NCBI GenBank assembly: GCA_022340805.1
Contig: JAJDNF010000035.1
Span: 1 to 32,817, forward strand
DNA from: Chromatiaceae bacterium
Lineage (GTDB): Bacteria > Pseudomonadota > Gammaproteobacteria > Chromatiales > Chromatiaceae
Reading direction: 5' to 3'
DNA length: 32,817 bases
Shown: positions 2,863 to 32,033 of the stretch, piece after piece
Layout: each line of letters begins with the position of its first letter
Position numbering within the stretch: position 1 is the first letter of the stretch
The notes under the pieces: model-generated
Told to the model about the DNA's origin: nothing
Seen by the model: only the letters and a program-made list of their open reading frames with translations
The model's database searches: none
Program-made: the position numbers and the translations under genes

Positions 2863-3295
2863 GCAGCGTCTCCAGGCCGAGTGCGGGCAGTGTCAGCGCA
2901 TCCTGGATGCAGCGCAGTACCAGCGGGCTGCGGGTCGGCAGGCCGCCGTCGCCGATTTCCGCAAGGGTCAGCCAGTGGGTTGCGATGATCTCAGGATCCA
3001 GGCTGCACCCCGGTATCGGGTCGCCGACCGCACCACAGAAACAGAAGCGCAGATAGGTGCGCTCGGTGTCCGGCAGGGTCCATTGATAGACCCCGAGCAG
3101 GCCGCTCGGGGTGAACGCGCAGCCGGTCTCCTCGAGTACCTCGCGGCAGACCGCCTCGAGCAAGGTCTCGCCGAACTCGAGGTGGCCGGCTGGCTGGTTG
3201 ATCACTGCCGTGCCGTCCGGACATTCCTCGACCATCAGGTAGCGGTCCTGACGGCGGATGACGGCGGCAACGGTGACGGAGGGCGACCAGGGCAT
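2849..3295 (-). CDS. nudJ: Nudix hydrolase, NudJ-type phosphatase
   Basis: A 148-residue single-domain Nudix protein. The Nudix box runs from Gly37 to Cys59: GHLEFGE, seven residues, then REVLEETGC, matching GX5EX7REUXEEXGU in full, including the metal-binding glutamates. E. coli NudJ hydrolyses nucleoside tri- and diphosphates and HMP pyrophosphate (thiamine biosynthesis). The orthologue call rests on the rluE-nudJ-mnmA-hflD gene order as well as the sequence. The ATG at 3295 lies 17 bp from the rluE stop, and the 3' end overlaps the next gene, consistent with one operon. Confidence 0.93.
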   Translation of the reverse strand: MPWSPSVTVAAVIRRQDRYLMVEECPDGTAVINQPAGHLEFGETLLEAVCREVLEETGCAFTPSGLLGVYQWTLPDTERTYLRFCFCGAVGDPIPGCSLDPEIIATHWLTLAEIGDGGLPTRSPLVLRCIQDALTLPALGLETLHALA

Positions 3296-3312
3296 CGGCG
3301 GATTCTAACATT

Positions 3313-3918
3313 TCAGCGCCGGCGCGCCGCTGGCCGCCGCGGGCCCTTGTGCCCGGTGCGGCGGCCGACCGGCGGCCCGGGCACGCTCAGCTCGCGCCAC
3401 TCGCCGGGCTGGATTTCGTCCAGACTCCATGCGTCGATAGCCCAGCGCACCAGGCGCAGGGTCGGGTAGCCGATTGCGGCGGTCATCCTGCGTACCTGCC
3501 GGTTGCGCCCCTCGTGGATCTGGATCTCCAGCCACTGGGTCGGGATATTGGCCCGGTAGCGCACCGGCGGGACGCGCGGCCAGAGTGCGGGTTCTCCGAT
3601 CAGGCGGGCGCGTGCGGGCCGGGTCGGGCCGTCGTTCAGCACGATACCTGCGCGCAGCGGATCCAGGTCGGCCTCGCGCGGGATGTTCTCGACCTGTGCC
3701 CAGTAGGTCTTCCAGGTCTGCTTGCGCGGTGCAGTCAGTTGGTGGGCCAGGGCGCCGTCGTCGGTCAGCAGTAACAGCCCCTCGCTGTCCCTGTCCAGCC
3801 GCCCGGCGGGATAGAAGCCCGGGCGGTCGATGTAGTCGGCCAGGGTCTTTCGTCCAGCCGCGTCGGTAAACTGCGACAGCACGTCGTAGGGTTTGTTAAA
3901 CAGTATCAATTGAGCCAT
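3313..3918 (-). CDS. rluE: 23S rRNA pseudouridine(2457) synthase RluE
   Basis: A 201-residue RsuA/RluB/E-family pseudouridine synthase lacking an N-terminal S4 domain, as in RluE. The catalytic Asp42 lies in [17 protein letters not shown]. Other family motifs are [12 protein letters not shown] near the start, KTYWAQVE in the middle and [13 protein letters not shown] toward the end. The Arg/Lys-rich tail ([13 protein letters not shown]) probably contacts rRNA. The reading frame remains open far upstream, antisense to icd, but homology begins at [10 protein letters not shown], so the ATG at 3918 is the start. The enzyme modifies U2457 near the peptidyl-transferase region. It is divergent from icd with a 72-bp spacer. 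Confidence 0.95.
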
Positions 3919-3942
3919 AAAATGAAGCGCGCCGCTGCCCGG

Positions 3943-3951
3943 TGCTAGAAT
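3943..3951 (+). promoter_or_regulatory. Extended -10 promoter element for icd
   Basis: TGC followed by TAGAAT gives an extended -10 box 39 bp before the icd ATG. No convincing -35 box is seen, which is normal for extended -10 promoters. The predicted start would leave a leader of about 33 nt. Confidence 0.5.
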
Positions 3952-3990
3952 CCAGATCTTCCCAAAACTCAAAGCGGATGGTTGTACCCC

Positions 3991-5264: not shown

Positions 5265-5294
5265 AAAAAAGCCTGCCGATCGGCAGGCTTTCTT
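5265..5294. terminator. Bidirectional intrinsic terminator between icd and the cold-shock gene
   Basis: A perfect palindrome, AAGCCTGCC-GATC-GGCAGGCTT with the centre at 5280/5281, is flanked by an A-run on the left and TTTCTT on the right. It can therefore end transcripts from both strands. It lies 17 bp after icd and 31 bp after the convergent cold-shock gene. Confidence 0.85.
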
Positions 5295-12401: not shown

Positions 12402-12424
12402 CGCCTGGTGGCGGCCACCAGGCG
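12402..12424. terminator. Hairpin between convergent PilZ gene and trxB
   Basis: A perfect 10-bp stem (CGCCTGGTGG / CCACCAGGCG) with a three-base loop fills the 34-bp gap between the two stops. It lacks a T-tract on either side, so termination is likely but not certain. Confidence 0.5.
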
Positions 12425-27818: not shown

Positions 27819-27894
<76 letters not shown>

Positions 27895-27996
27895 ATTTCT
27901 TTGTAGGTGACTGATTTTTCTCTGGTTTGTACGCCGCCACGGCGAACCGTAATCCCTAATCAGGGTTCTGTTCGCAACGTACACGGAGAAACGCGA

Positions 27997-28887
27997 ATGC
28001 CTACCTTTGGCGACACCGTCGCGGCGTTTGTCGCCGCGCGCGAGTACGATCAAGCCACGCTGTCACGGTTGGGCTTTTGGTCCGACCAGTTCGGTGATCG
28101 CGAGTTGACCAGCATCACTGCCGACGAGGTCGATGCCGCCCTAGTGCGCTTGGCCGAGCGCGGGCGACTCAAGCCGACCCGGGGACAGGAAACCCGCCGC
28201 GCCGGCAAACCCCTGGCACCCGCCAGCATCAATCGCTACATCTCCCAGTTGGGCAGCGTCTACAAGTTCGCCCGGCGCCTGCGCCTGATTCCGCGCACCT
28301 TCGTGTTCCCGACCGCCAATATCGAGAAGTCCCCCGAGCCGACCGACCCGGAGCGCTACCTGCGCGCCGAGGAAGTCGAGCGCATCCTGACCGTGACCAA
28401 GGTCATGGACCACAAGTGGGGCCGGCTGACCGCGCTGATCGTGCTCGCGTATCATACCGGCCTACGCAAATCCAACCTGCTGAACCTCAAGTGGTGCGAC
28501 GTCGATCTGGATGCCGGCACCGCGACCGTGACCCGGACGAAGAACGGCGAGCCGATCGTCGCGGCGCTCTCCAAGCGGGCGATCGCGGAGCTGCGCAAGC
28601 TGCCCGGCAAGCACCCGCCCGATGAGCACATCTTCGCCGGGCGCAACGGCCAACCGCTGCAATTCCGTTCACTGTGGCTGCGCGTAGTCGAGGCCGCTGG
28701 TCTGCCGGGCCGGAACTTTCACCAACTGCGCCACGGCTGCGGCCATGCGCTATCCACGGCCGGGGTCAATCAGGCGCAGATCATGGCGCTGATGGGGCAC
28801 AAGACCTTGACCGCCTCGGCGCGCTACATGCACCACAACGTCAGCGACAAGCAGGAGATCGTCGCCAAAGTGTTTGATCGTGCGTAG
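27997..28887 (+). CDS. int: Tyrosine recombinase (integrase)
   Basis: A 296-residue site-specific recombinase with all catalytic residues: Arg157 (HTGLRKSNLL), Lys182 (TRTKNGEP), His242 and Arg245 (FHQLRHGCGHAL), His268 (LMGHKT) and nucleophile Tyr277 (SARYMHHN). An N-terminal SAM-like core-binding domain covers about 1-105. There is no separate arm-binding domain, so it is small for an integrase. The ATG at 27997 is supported by GGAGA upstream; the open frame before it extends almost to the tRNA. It should catalyse integration into and excision from the tRNA-Gly site. Confidence 0.95.
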   Translation: MPTFGDTVAAFVAAREYDQATLSRLGFWSDQFGDRELTSITADEVDAALVRLAERGRLKPTRGQETRRAGKPLAPASINRYISQLGSVYKFARRLRLIPRTFVFPTANIEKSPEPTDPERYLRAEEVERILTVTKVMDHKWGRLTALIVLAYHTGLRKSNLLNLKWCDVDLDAGTATVTRTKNGEPIVAALSKRAIAELRKLPGKHPPDEHIFAGRNGQPLQFRSLWLRVVEAAGLPGRNFHQLRHGCGHALSTAGVNQAQIMALMGHKTLTASARYMHHNVSDKQEIVAKVFDRA

Positions 28888-30162: not shown

Positions 30163-31014
30163 ATGTTTGAAAGCAATCTCGCCAATATCGCCATTGAGCT
30201 GTTGCAGGCAGATGATTCGATTCAGCAGCGCGTGAATCACACCGATCAGGAGACGGTCGATCGCTACGCCGAAGCCGCTGCTGGTGGTTGGCCGTTCCCT
30301 CCGATCGTCGTGTTCCGCGACCCCAACGGGAAACACTGGCTGGCCGATGGGTTTCACCGTGTCGAGGTAGCCGATCAGCTTGGTATCGATCAAGTCCCAG
30401 CTGAGATCCGGCTCGGCAGCCAGCGCGATGCTGTGCTGTTTGCGGTGGGTGCCAACGACCAGCATGGTCTTCCGCGCAGCAACGCTGACAAGCGGCGCGC
30501 CGTGACCACGATGCTGAACGATGCCGAGTGGTCGGCGTGGTCCGATCGCGAGATAGCCACGCAGTGTCAGGTTTCACATCCCTTTGTCGCAAAAGTTCGC
30601 GAACAATTCGAGGAGGGACTAGAGCAGATTAAGAATTTGACTGGAAACGTTTCCAGTCAAATTAACAAGCACCCGTCACCGGCAGTCCGCAAAACCGCCA
30701 ACGGCCGGACAATCAACACTGCCAACATCAGCAAGGCGAACAAGGAGCGCGCCAGAAAGCCACCGCCGACGGTGACACCCGCCAAGGCTGCACAGCAAGC
30801 GTTGCATCGATTCGGCGGCGCGTGCGCGGATCTACGCAGCGTGAAGTTGGAACGGCCCGAAATGTTCAGGGTGGCCGAGTGCCTCGTTTGCGGTTCGCGA
30901 TTCAAGCGCGGCGTCGCTGAGCGCTGGAAACGGCTTTGCATCTCCTGTTACGCCTACAACAAGGCAGCGCAGGCGCACGATGCGCAAACGCGGTGGCTGT
31001 GGTTGGTGCGATGA
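30163..31014 (+). CDS. ParB-like protein with C-terminal zinc finger
   Basis: A 283-residue protein. Residues about 20-100 look like a ParB/Srx N-terminal domain, with PPIVVFRDPNGKHWLADGFHRVEVADQLG carrying the DGxHR core (shown here in parts: PPIVVF, ADGFHR). Residues 125-150 form a helix-turn-helix (SDREIATQCQVSHPFVAKVR). A linker follows, then a zinc finger at 240-262 (Cys240, Cys243, Cys259, Cys262). The ATG at 30163 has AGGAG upstream. ParB-like proteins bind DNA for partition or gene control, and some hydrolyse CTP or cut DNA; which applies is unknown. It overlaps the ATPase gene as ATGA. A 30-bp perfect palindrome lies within its own coding sequence just after the helix-turn-helix. Confidence 0.83.
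   Translation: MFESNLANIAIELLQADDSIQQRVNHTDQETVDRYAEAAAGGWPFPPIVVFRDPNGKHWLADGFHRVEVADQLGIDQVPAEIRLGSQRDAVLFAVGANDQHGLPRSNADKRRAVTTMLNDAEWSAWSDREIATQCQVSHPFVAKVREQFEEGLEQIKNLTGNVSSQINKHPSPAVRKTANGRTINTANISKANKERARKPPPTVTPAKAAQQALHRFGGACADLRSVKLERPEMFRVAECLVCGSRFKRGVAERWKRLCISCYAYNKAAQAHDAQTRWLWLVR
30634..30663. repeat. 30-bp perfect palindrome inside the ParB-like gene
   Basis: Fifteen bases beginning AATTTGACTGG are followed directly by their exact reverse complement, centred at 30648/30649 on the sequence AAACGTTT. There is no loop. The site encodes about residues 158-168 of the ParB-like protein, in the linker after the helix-turn-helix. Perfect symmetry of this length is typical of a protein-binding site such as an operator or a parS-like site, though the sequence is not the chromosomal parS consensus. 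Confidence 0.9.
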
Positions 31015-32033
31015 GCGAGCCACCCGACAACGTGACACCGATCCGGCGCGATGAAGGCCTGGCCGGCAACGTCAGAAGCGCACGCGATCTGCTGAACATG
31101 GAGTTTGCCGAGCTGCATTGGAACATCGACGGCATCTTGCCGGCCGGAACCATGCTGCTATTCGGCAGGCCGAAGAAGGGAAAGAGTTTTCTCACGCTAA
31201 TGATGGCAATCAGCATTGCCGCCAAACGGCCTGTCTTCGGCAAGGCGACCAGCGGTAAGCGCGTCCTGTATCTCGCCTTGGAAGACAGCCTACGGCGGCT
31301 TAAACGGCGCGTGAGAGGCTGTGCGGATGCGTTGGGGATATCGCCACCGGAGTTCGCCGATGGCCTGCACCTGGCGACCACCTCCAAGCGCATCGACACC
31401 GGCCTGATTCAGGACTTGCGCGACTGGCTGGTCGCGTATGAAGACACCGGCCTAATCGTCGTTGACATGCTCAAGAAGGTGAGCGCAGCCGAGGACCGGC
31501 GCAAAAGCCTTTACGACCAGCAGGCTGAGGTTGGCCATGCGCTGACCAAACTGAGCCACGATTTCCCGGAGCTGACCATTCTAGTCGTACACCACAGCCG
31601 CAAGATGCAGGCCGACGATCCTTTCGACATGGTGAGCGGCACAACCGGCCTCAGCGGCAGCTATGACAGTCTGGCGGCTATTGCCGATAGCCCCGGCGCC
31701 CGTGTGCTGCATATAACCGGCCGCGATGTAGAAAGCGCCGCGATCCCGCTGATGATGAACGAGCGCGGCATGTACACCCTACAGATGCTGGATCTTGAGG
31801 ACATCGCGGCGGCAACAATGAGCGACACCCGGCGCGCTGTTTTCGATGCAGTCGCGAGCACTATTCCGATGGAAATCGGGGACATCATCAAGGGCTGCAA
31901 GTTGGACCGAACCGTGGTGGACAACCAGTTGACTCGACTGGTGCGCTCGGGGCTTGTCCAACGTGTGAGTCGTGGCATGTACCAGAGAAGCGGCAAGCGC
32001 TGGTTTGATGAGCCAATCCGTGATAACTACTGA
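31011..32033 (+). CDS. RepA/DnaB-like AAA ATPase (putative replicative helicase) with C-terminal winged helix
   Basis: A 340-residue RecA-fold ATPase of the plasmid RepA/AAA_25 type. Walker A is GRPKKGKS at 52-59, followed by VLYLALED (about 85-92), Walker B GLIVVDML (about 147-154) and VVHHSRK (about 198), which matches the sensor region of hexameric RepA helicases. Residues about 285-330 form a winged helix (MEIGDIIKGCKLDRTVVDNQ, then RLVRSGLVQRVSRGMYQ). I infer that it unwinds or recruits at the origin of the element. The ATG at 31011 overlaps the ParB-like stop by four bases. The repeat-rich region immediately downstream could be its origin. Confidence 0.85.
   Translation: MSEPPDNVTPIRRDEGLAGNVRSARDLLNMEFAELHWNIDGILPAGTMLLFGRPKKGKSFLTLMMAISIAAKRPVFGKATSGKRVLYLALEDSLRRLKRRVRGCADALGISPPEFADGLHLATTSKRIDTGLIQDLRDWLVAYEDTGLIVVDMLKKVSAAEDRRKSLYDQQAEVGHALTKLSHDFPELTILVVHHSRKMQADDPFDMVSGTTGLSGSYDSLAAIADSPGARVLHITGRDVESAAIPLMMNERGMYTLQMLDLEDIAAATMSDTRRAVFDAVASTIPMEIGDIIKGCKLDRTVVDNQLTRLVRSGLVQRVSRGMYQRSGKRWFDEPIRDNY

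Follow-up and report, generated by a model that had tools for sequence, protein, structure and literature searches.

Bacillus subtilis has several parS sites, as well as Soj. One of these sites, parS-359, lies inside parB/spo0J (PMC4442127), and in SCP1 a parS1 site is located inside parB1, with three identical parS1 sites situated around the parAB operon (PMC13245405). In SCP2 of Streptomyces coelicolor, parS is an 18-bp inverted repeat within the coding sequence of parT itself, as determined by ChIP-seq and biolayer interferometry, and ParT, whose partner is ParA, has no CTPase (ParB-N type) domain and acts in its absence (PMC12260392). Three further DNA-binding systems are relevant. StrR, of streptomycin biosynthesis, has the consensus GTTCGActG(N)11CagTcGAAc (PMC8306873); Noc reads adenine with a glutamine at ParB position 173, specificity being set at the recognition helix (PMC7383237); and KorB of RK2 is a ParB-fold clamp whose silencing reaches far from where it loads (PMC11790492).

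The locus described here also carries an inverted repeat within the coding sequence of a ParB-like gene. The window, meaning the whole stretch of DNA that was analysed, comprises 32,817 nt from Chromatiaceae bacterium (assembly GCA_022340805.1, contig JAJDNF010000035.1), and its features are given in Table 1. The region from the tRNA-Gly onward looks like an integrated element: the integrase gene directly follows the tRNA and is itself followed by small ORFs, the ParB-like gene and the AAA_25 ATPase gene, the start of which shares 4 nt (ATGA) with the stop of the ParB-like gene, and the contig ends at 32817. On the upstream side of the tRNA the genes are chromosomal, for example uvrC and a CDP-alcohol phosphatidyltransferase. 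A search for a second att copy or tRNA end returned only the tRNA itself, and no ParA-type gene was found among the integrase and four other element ORFs scanned in the window. None of eight genomes of the same genus encodes the ParB-like protein, and any match to it was present in five of the 56 genomes searched, including its own. Two other strong palindromes in the window, at 5268-5291 (AAAGCCTGCCGATCGGCAGGCTTT) and 12402-12424 (CGCCTGGTGGCGGCCACCAGGCG), are possibly ordinary terminators.

Table 1. Coordinates of features in the window and the basis on which each was assigned.
Feature	Position	Strand	Basis
tRNA-Gly(GCC), at which the element presumably inserted	27819..27894	+	adjacent integrase; no second att copy found
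Tyrosine integrase of the element	27907..28887	+	Pfam Phage_integrase E 8.9e-30
ParB-like protein P0001, 283 aa: ParB-N/sulfiredoxin-like domain, HTH, linker, C-terminal part	30163..31014	+	phrog_1033, Foldseek
Codons of residues 128-129, start of first HTH helix; 129 co-varies with dyad position 6	30544..30549	+	covariation, model
Codons of residues 138-143, turn and start of recognition helix	30574..30591	+	139 with position 5; 139-141 with positions 3-4
30-bp perfect dyad, predicted binding (loading) site of the ParB-like protein of the same gene	30634..30663	.	palindrome, family-wide dyad, covariation
Site core CTGGAAAC/GTTTCCAG	30641..30656	.	position profile; sole copy in own genome
AAA_25 ATPase (RepA- or DnaB-like, helicase-like)	31011..32033	+	Pfam AAA_25 E 4.8e-25, DnaB_C 1.9e-4

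The dyad, AATTTGACTGGAAACGTTTCCAGTCAAATT, is the longest perfect palindrome in the window and encodes residues 158-167 (NLTGNVSSQI) of the ParB-like protein. The preliminary description of this DNA had reported a perfect palindrome with neither loop nor mismatch inside a ParB-like coding sequence, and both its coordinates and its complementarity (15 + 15 nt, loop 0, 100%) were verified. It is also far beyond chance, as base composition predicts 8.8e-5 such perfect palindromes in the window, two of the 331,776 synonymous codings of NLTGNVSSQI are perfectly palindromic (codon-usage-weighted probability 1.6e-6), and recoding the entire gene synonymously 4,000 times gave no perfect arm longer than 11, against 15 in the actual gene. 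The count of copies that had been proposed gave a single copy in the host's own genome (3.49 Mb, 98 contigs, 89.9% complete), where AATTTGACTGGAAACGTTTCCAGTCAAATT is the sole match at up to three mismatches and the 16-bp core CTGGAAACGTTTCCAG is the sole match at up to one. No exact copies of AATTTGACTGGAAACGTTTCCAGTCAAATT were found in the viral contigs. Neither terminator-like nor promoter-like matches were detected at 30634-30663, and a transcription terminator was rejected as a candidate.

The protein matches phrog_1033, 'ParB-like partition protein' (E 1.1e-22), as do all 72 family members scanned. Its AlphaFold2 model (mean pLDDT 81.5) retrieved ParB-CDP (6sdk, E 8.8e-8), Noc (7nfu), KorB (8qa9) and PadC with Foldseek, so that the fold of canonical ParB, with an N domain and an HTH domain, is present. 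In the model the recognition helix opens at residue 139 and the preceding helix at residue 128. The GERR CTP motif of canonical ParB is absent from the protein sequence; at the aligned place is DGFHR, which resembles the sulfiredoxin SGCHR equally well, and CTP-clamp spreading is therefore putative. The dyad had been assigned to a protein linker, and the model is in rough agreement: residues 158-167 take in the last part of a long helix (139-164), in which model confidence drops, and the first part of the linker.

Homologues were taken from plasmid and phage collections, from further genomes, and from the best 80 of 260 confirmed genome loci and the best 80 of at least 562 viral loci, the genome and viral loci being picked by protein similarity alone. 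Many were retrieved with an alignment as the query; a single-protein query gave none in genome_contigs and three in viral_contigs. A held-out set of 76 proteins was obtained from two further viral scans (160 further viral matches, overlapping the first 80). The HTH was mapped by profile, and 158 distinct linker regions were scored from −15 nt to +135 nt relative to the HTH end. The null consisted of 200 synonymous recodings for each of 145 distinct genes.

A first look at plasmid genes revealed palindromes at the same place, in other letters, in four of six (L013, L014, L016 and L017), with no such palindrome in L012 and L015. Across the 145 genes, palindromes just after the HTH reached a score of at least 8 in 99 (5.3 expected from synonymous recoding), at least 10 in 65 (0.46 expected) and at least 12 in 22 (0.05 expected). 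At the same thresholds, 3, 0 and 0 of the 145 genes scored in the 150 nt preceding the linker region, and 6, 1 and 0 in the next 150 nt further 5'. A significant linker palindrome (p ≤ 0.05) is present in 102 genes; by source, the share is 52 of 69 for genome loci and 44 of 64 for viral ones. The placement is narrow, with 104 of the 116 palindromes scoring at least 7.5 starting between −15 and +25 nt of the HTH end. In the held-out set, 33 of the 76 proteins scored at least 10 against 0.47 expected, and the palindrome was significant in 48 and not in the other 28. Judging by their record titles, the loci that have a significant site come from cyanobacteria, alpha-, beta- and gammaproteobacteria and Planctomycetes, among others, and from one member each of Armatimonadetes, Kaiserbacteria and Ardenticatenaceae (Chloroflexi) and a Polyangiaceae MAG. 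A search with a loose degenerate pattern over 12 genomes or records was uninformative. The comparison of homologues suggested in the preliminary description, with its refuting condition, went in favour of the proposal, subject to a correction: symmetry and spacing are kept, but the sequence itself is not, and 43 of the 145 genes have no significant linker palindrome.

When 105 distinct palindromes were aligned on their dyad centres, a T-A pair was found at position 7 in 102 of them, and the other fixed positions are C at 8, G at 6, A/T at 9 and A/C at 10. The half-site consensus, from the outside to the centre, is T-M-W-C-T-G-N5 (M = A or C). Positions 3-5 use all four base pairs, with GC in 39, CG in 28, TA in 28 and AT in 9 at position 5. 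The centre is odd in 69 sites and even in 36. The window's own site is even-centred (N10), and its core has C at 8, T at 7, G at 6, G at 5, A at 4, 3 and 2, and C at 1, with their partners. Dyad centres fall in all six half-codon phases (37, 31, 25, 7, 3 and 2 of 105). As the letters and the reading frame vary between genes while the two arms change together, the constraint acts on the DNA. Conservation at the protein level is ruled out by the synonymous null and the differing reading frames.

Consensus dyads were also counted in the 1.19 Mb around the 158 genes. There were 126, of which 99 are in the linker window, four are elsewhere in the gene and 23 are outside it, and a control motif occurred 23 times in all in the same DNA. 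The 99 linker dyads are partly there by construction, since the consensus was derived from these genes, which does not apply to the 23 outside.

Mutual information between site and protein was calculated for 112 distinct proteins with a dyad over 143 protein columns, from dyads that had first been chosen to carry T at position 7. It peaks at the HTH, where position 5 is associated with residue 139 (z 30) and position 6 with residue 129 (z 20); position 4 is associated with residues 139 (best) and 140, and position 3 with residues 141 (best) and 140. For residue 139 and position 5 the pairs are H-G (37/42), E-C (21/21), D-C (11/11), Q-A (8/10) and N-T (9/10); for residue 129 and position 6 they are R-G (88/90) and N/S-T (11/11); and residue 140 pairs as K/R-G (20/21) and D-C (10/10). 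Pairing of R to G, E or D to C and Q to A fits what is chemically plausible. The gene in the window obeys this code, with R129-G6, H139-G5, and P140 and F141 with A3.

With one protein per 55% cluster (n = 21), residue 139 is the top column for position 5 (z 6.2), residue 140 for positions 3 and 4, and residue 129 for position 6 (2.1), with residue 112 close behind (2.0). Positions 9 and 10 showed no clear HTH signal in this reduced set, and three flank positions top out at no more than 1.6, one of them at residue 139 (z 1.5). When whole clades were left out, residue 139 predicted position 5 in 62 of 68 cases (commonest base 37), and residue 140 predicted position 4 in 53 of 69 (commonest base 9) and position 3 in 58 of 68 (commonest base 39); there was no gain for residue 129 on position 6 (92 of 94, versus 92) or residue 141 on position 3 (48 of 99, versus 48).

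As a control for kinship, a tree was built from the ParB-N domain alone, which is a different domain from the HTH. Changes on the same branch were in excess for residue 139 and position 5 (25 versus 10.1 expected, p 3.6e-8), residue 129 and position 6 (10 versus 1.4, p 1.7e-8) and residue 141 and position 3 (22 versus 8.9, p 4.5e-7), in each case the best column tested. For position 4 the best column was 139 (p 3.9e-6), with 140 weak (p 0.007). In the held-out proteins, position 5 was correctly predicted from residue 139 in 38 of 47 cases (baseline 10); for position 6 and residue 129 the figure was 33 of 38 (baseline 24). The prediction of position 3 from residue 141 was barely above baseline in that set (27 of 42, versus 21), and the predictions of position 4 from residue 140 (24 of 43, versus 22) and of position 9 from residue 128 (19 of 42, versus 22) failed. 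The link between residue 139 and position 5 is therefore firm and that between residue 129 and position 6 is well supported, the remaining pairs being suggestive. The computations show a dyad at the level of the DNA that is common in the family and co-evolves with the HTH.

The site is usually single. In the local stretches around 116 loci, 106 have no second copy of their own type at up to five mismatches (a reversed control matches in 4 of 116); five have one at up to three mismatches, where the control gave none. Seven of seven viral records of 19-51 kb, which are possibly fragments, carry exactly one site. A few genes without a linker palindrome carry one elsewhere. L069 has no significant linker palindrome, and the core CTGGAAACGTTTCCAG is found in its N-terminal extension, inside the peptide LTGNVSS; its residues R129, H139 and P140 are those of the window protein and residue 141 differs. 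In L162, where residue 139 is N, a consensus dyad whose position 5 is T lies 189 nt upstream of the ORF, and the linker palindrome is weak and non-consensus (p 0.04); in L170, where residue 139 is E, position 5 of the dyad is C, and the dyad starts just outside the scanned region. By eye, no consensus dyad was seen in the linker of L206 or of three of three Streptomyces StrR-like plasmid genes. The linker of L205 (phage ctpbd312, MW202545.1) contains tandem TACTAGTCAGACTAGTA palindromes of a different type. L088 (Polyangiaceae MAG) has three extra sites of its own type, in contrast to the usual single copy: one located 866 nt into the ORF and two, near each other, approximately 2 kb downstream of the gene. 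In genome G363, a 20 + 20 palindrome, TGGGTGTTGCAAATACGAAGCCTTCGTATTTGCAACACCCA, is present at L010:2045-2085 in a more distant ParB-like gene that, by eye, looks fused to a methyltransferase-like domain.

The planctomycete chromosome CP087563.1 encodes eight family genes with seven palindrome sequences among them, an identical site being present in two ParB-like genes. In a third ParB-like gene (L200, minus strand, ~2697400) the linker contains a triple 66-bp repeat, SSLINCISENPSVPDQSVAESQ, with one TCACTTATAAATTGTATAAGTGA dyad per unit, so that three tandem copies of a related site form an intragenic array. The chromosome also has two site clusters outside ParB-like genes, with sites of three types. 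These clusters, at ~1460-1560 of L198 and the matching place of L199 (CP087563.1 near 3343385 and 5713484), are near-identical and place three palindrome types side by side, one of which matches the site of L054/L047 with one mismatch and another that of L093. Both adjoin an ORF that resembles, by eye, the end of a primase-helicase.

The palindrome is very probably a self-carried ParB-type site, co-evolving with the protein of the same gene, which would bind it, as judged from this co-evolution. The earlier proposal that the gene contains a DNA site for the ParB-type protein it encodes is thereby strongly supported, through the symmetry across the family, the covariation with the recognition helix and the independence from reading frame. 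A dimer would place one recognition helix on each half-site; position 5 would be read by residue 139, position 6 by residue 129 and positions 3-4 by residues 139-141. Since the site is part of the gene, the protein and its target are transferred, passed on and altered together. Against the self-site weigh the genes with no significant linker palindrome (43 of 145, and 28 of 76 in the held-out set), the Streptomyces genes with no consensus dyad, and the weaker residue-base pairs that failed in the held-out set.

What binding would do is a separate matter. Only one of the 49 first upstream neighbours scanned (of 97) is a ParA-type AAA_31 (L115, E ≤ 1e-9), and none of the 66 first downstream neighbours scanned (of 98) is a ParA-type ATPase at E ≤ 1e-6. 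The rarity of a ParA-type gene next door speaks against ordinary partition. Of the suggestion that the palindrome is a parS-like centromere or an autoregulatory operator, the intragenic self-site stands, and these neighbour counts do not separate centromere from operator. In L115, a viral contig, the ParA-type neighbour is at 3264-3974, and its linker palindrome has the second-highest score of the set. The ParB fold, together with a single site away from promoters, favours loading and spreading as for ParT and KorB. The protein may load at the intragenic site and then spread or clamp over its own and neighbouring genes, as do ParB, KorB and ParT, which would result in feedback and/or the marking of element DNA for maintenance or replication; we hold this more weakly than the self-site, as a plausible proposal that falls a little short of probable.

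The two rivals that survive best, a purely autoregulatory operator and a replication origin, share the self-site with this proposal and differ only in the effect of binding. As an operator, the site would act as a roadblock to RNA polymerase approximately 470 nt into the gene, limiting synthesis of the protein and of the coupled ATPase. This is possible, though rather doubtful: one site per record in the host's own genome and in the seven viral records agrees with it, as do the ATGA overlap with the next gene and the dyad upstream of the L162 ORF, which is an ordinary operator position, but operators are expected near promoters, and the consensus dyads outside the genes are no more frequent than the control motif (23 versus 23). 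It is also compatible with a loading site and inseparable from one by sequence.

In lambda, the replication origin is located inside the initiator gene O. A phage-type origin of this kind within the ParB-like gene, with the ParB-like protein as the initiator that would bind there and pass on to the adjacent helicase, is an unlikely reading. The overlapping AAA_25 ATPase gene in the window would suit it, and ResIII/Helicase_C is found in 20 of the 66 first downstream neighbours scanned, and 35 of 98 loci have that helicase cluster among the two genes that follow; in addition, a match to phrog_678, 'replication initiation O-like', was obtained for one of 72 family members, and the three-site clusters of L198/L199 are beside the apparent primase-helicase end. 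However, the dyad is usually single with no iteron array (L200, with three, being the exception), the fold is that of ParB/Noc/KorB, and the same dyad layout is seen in genes of cyanobacterial plasmids that neighbour polyketide/NRPS-type genes, where the stretch shown lacks a replication gene. The occurrence of homologues beside biosynthetic genes argues against replication as the general role.

A hairpin in the mRNA, acting in attenuation, translational pausing or processing, is highly improbable. Any palindrome can fold in RNA and the arms do show compensatory changes, but the mismatches within dyads, which are mainly A-A and T-T near the centre, include fewer G-T (7) than A-C (18), contrary to the tolerance of G-U expected for RNA, and the innermost pair, where RNA cannot pair, is complementary in 64-69% of sites. 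The letters of the site also track HTH residues, and it lacks a terminator-like match. The stalling of transcription or translation before the helicase gene, which had been raised for this palindrome, is not upheld, given this mismatch pattern and the lack of terminator- and promoter-like matches. That a conserved peptide merely happens to be palindromic has a negligible chance of being right, as the recurrence of LTGNVSS in L069, which might suggest it, is at the other end of a protein with the same HTH residues 129, 139 and 140, and the synonymous null and differing reading frames exclude a peptide explanation.

Going beyond loading and spreading, it is possible, though somewhat less likely than not, that the gene is a self-contained specificity cassette, in which a reading head and its target on the same DNA diverge in lockstep and the site acts as a single identity tag in cis. 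There would be one loading point, from which the protein would spread over, silence or escort its own element without ParA, and several elements could coexist per cell under different tags, as on the planctomycete chromosome. Some elements may carry the tags of others, as the L198/L199 arrays could illustrate. If true, such a cassette would span, in a large ParB-like family, phages, integrated elements, plasmids and some biosynthetic clusters, and would be a simple route by which mobile elements keep protein and target together while specificity changes. Since a protein and its DNA target are documented together in most family genes examined, many natural recognition pairs of ParB type become available from sequence, where a screen would normally be required. 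The results also point to a concrete role for phrog_1033, a protein of phages and elements that is little more than a name so far, and suggest that the ParB fold is used with no ParA gene adjacent.

With neither a ParA partner found among the neighbours scanned in the window nor the GERR motif, the system is not classed as canonical ParABS, and would work like an intragenic parS. The likeness to SCP2 ParT-parS lies in the inverted repeat inside the coding sequence of a ParB-like gene; unlike in SCP2, a ParB-N/sulfiredoxin-like domain is present, ParA is rarely adjacent, and co-evolution of the site is seen in many phyla and in viral contigs. Whereas B. subtilis and SCP1 have several parS sites, there is usually one here, after the HTH. 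The ACTG-N11-CAGT register of StrR is equivalent to dyad positions 9-6 of the odd-centred class (69/105), and some homologues are annotated as streptomycin-type regulators. StrR sites, however, serve activation in a biosynthetic cluster and the site here is intragenic; moreover, it is present as a single copy (in the host's own incomplete genome and in 7/7 viral records) and not as several target-gene sites, as for a StrR-type regulator.

Residue 139 probably corresponds to ParB R173, judging from an alignment by eye of G170-K171-S172-R173 with Q136-V137-S138-H139, and if the positions do correspond, the Q139-A pair is like the reading of adenine by glutamine in Noc. In contrast to Noc and ParB, the residue-base pairing is readable from natural sequence, as the genes carry their own site. 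KorB shares the ParB fold, as matched by Foldseek, but uses OB sites near and far from promoters, a partner, KorA, and CTP (PMC11790492). No paper on a family-wide intragenic site in this ParB-like family was found in the open-licence literature. Intragenic parS is itself known, from parS-359, SCP2 parT and SCP1 parB1; what is new, as far as the open-licence literature shows, is its wide occurrence in a ParB-like family mostly without an adjacent ParA, together with a co-evolution of protein and site that is legible in the sequence.
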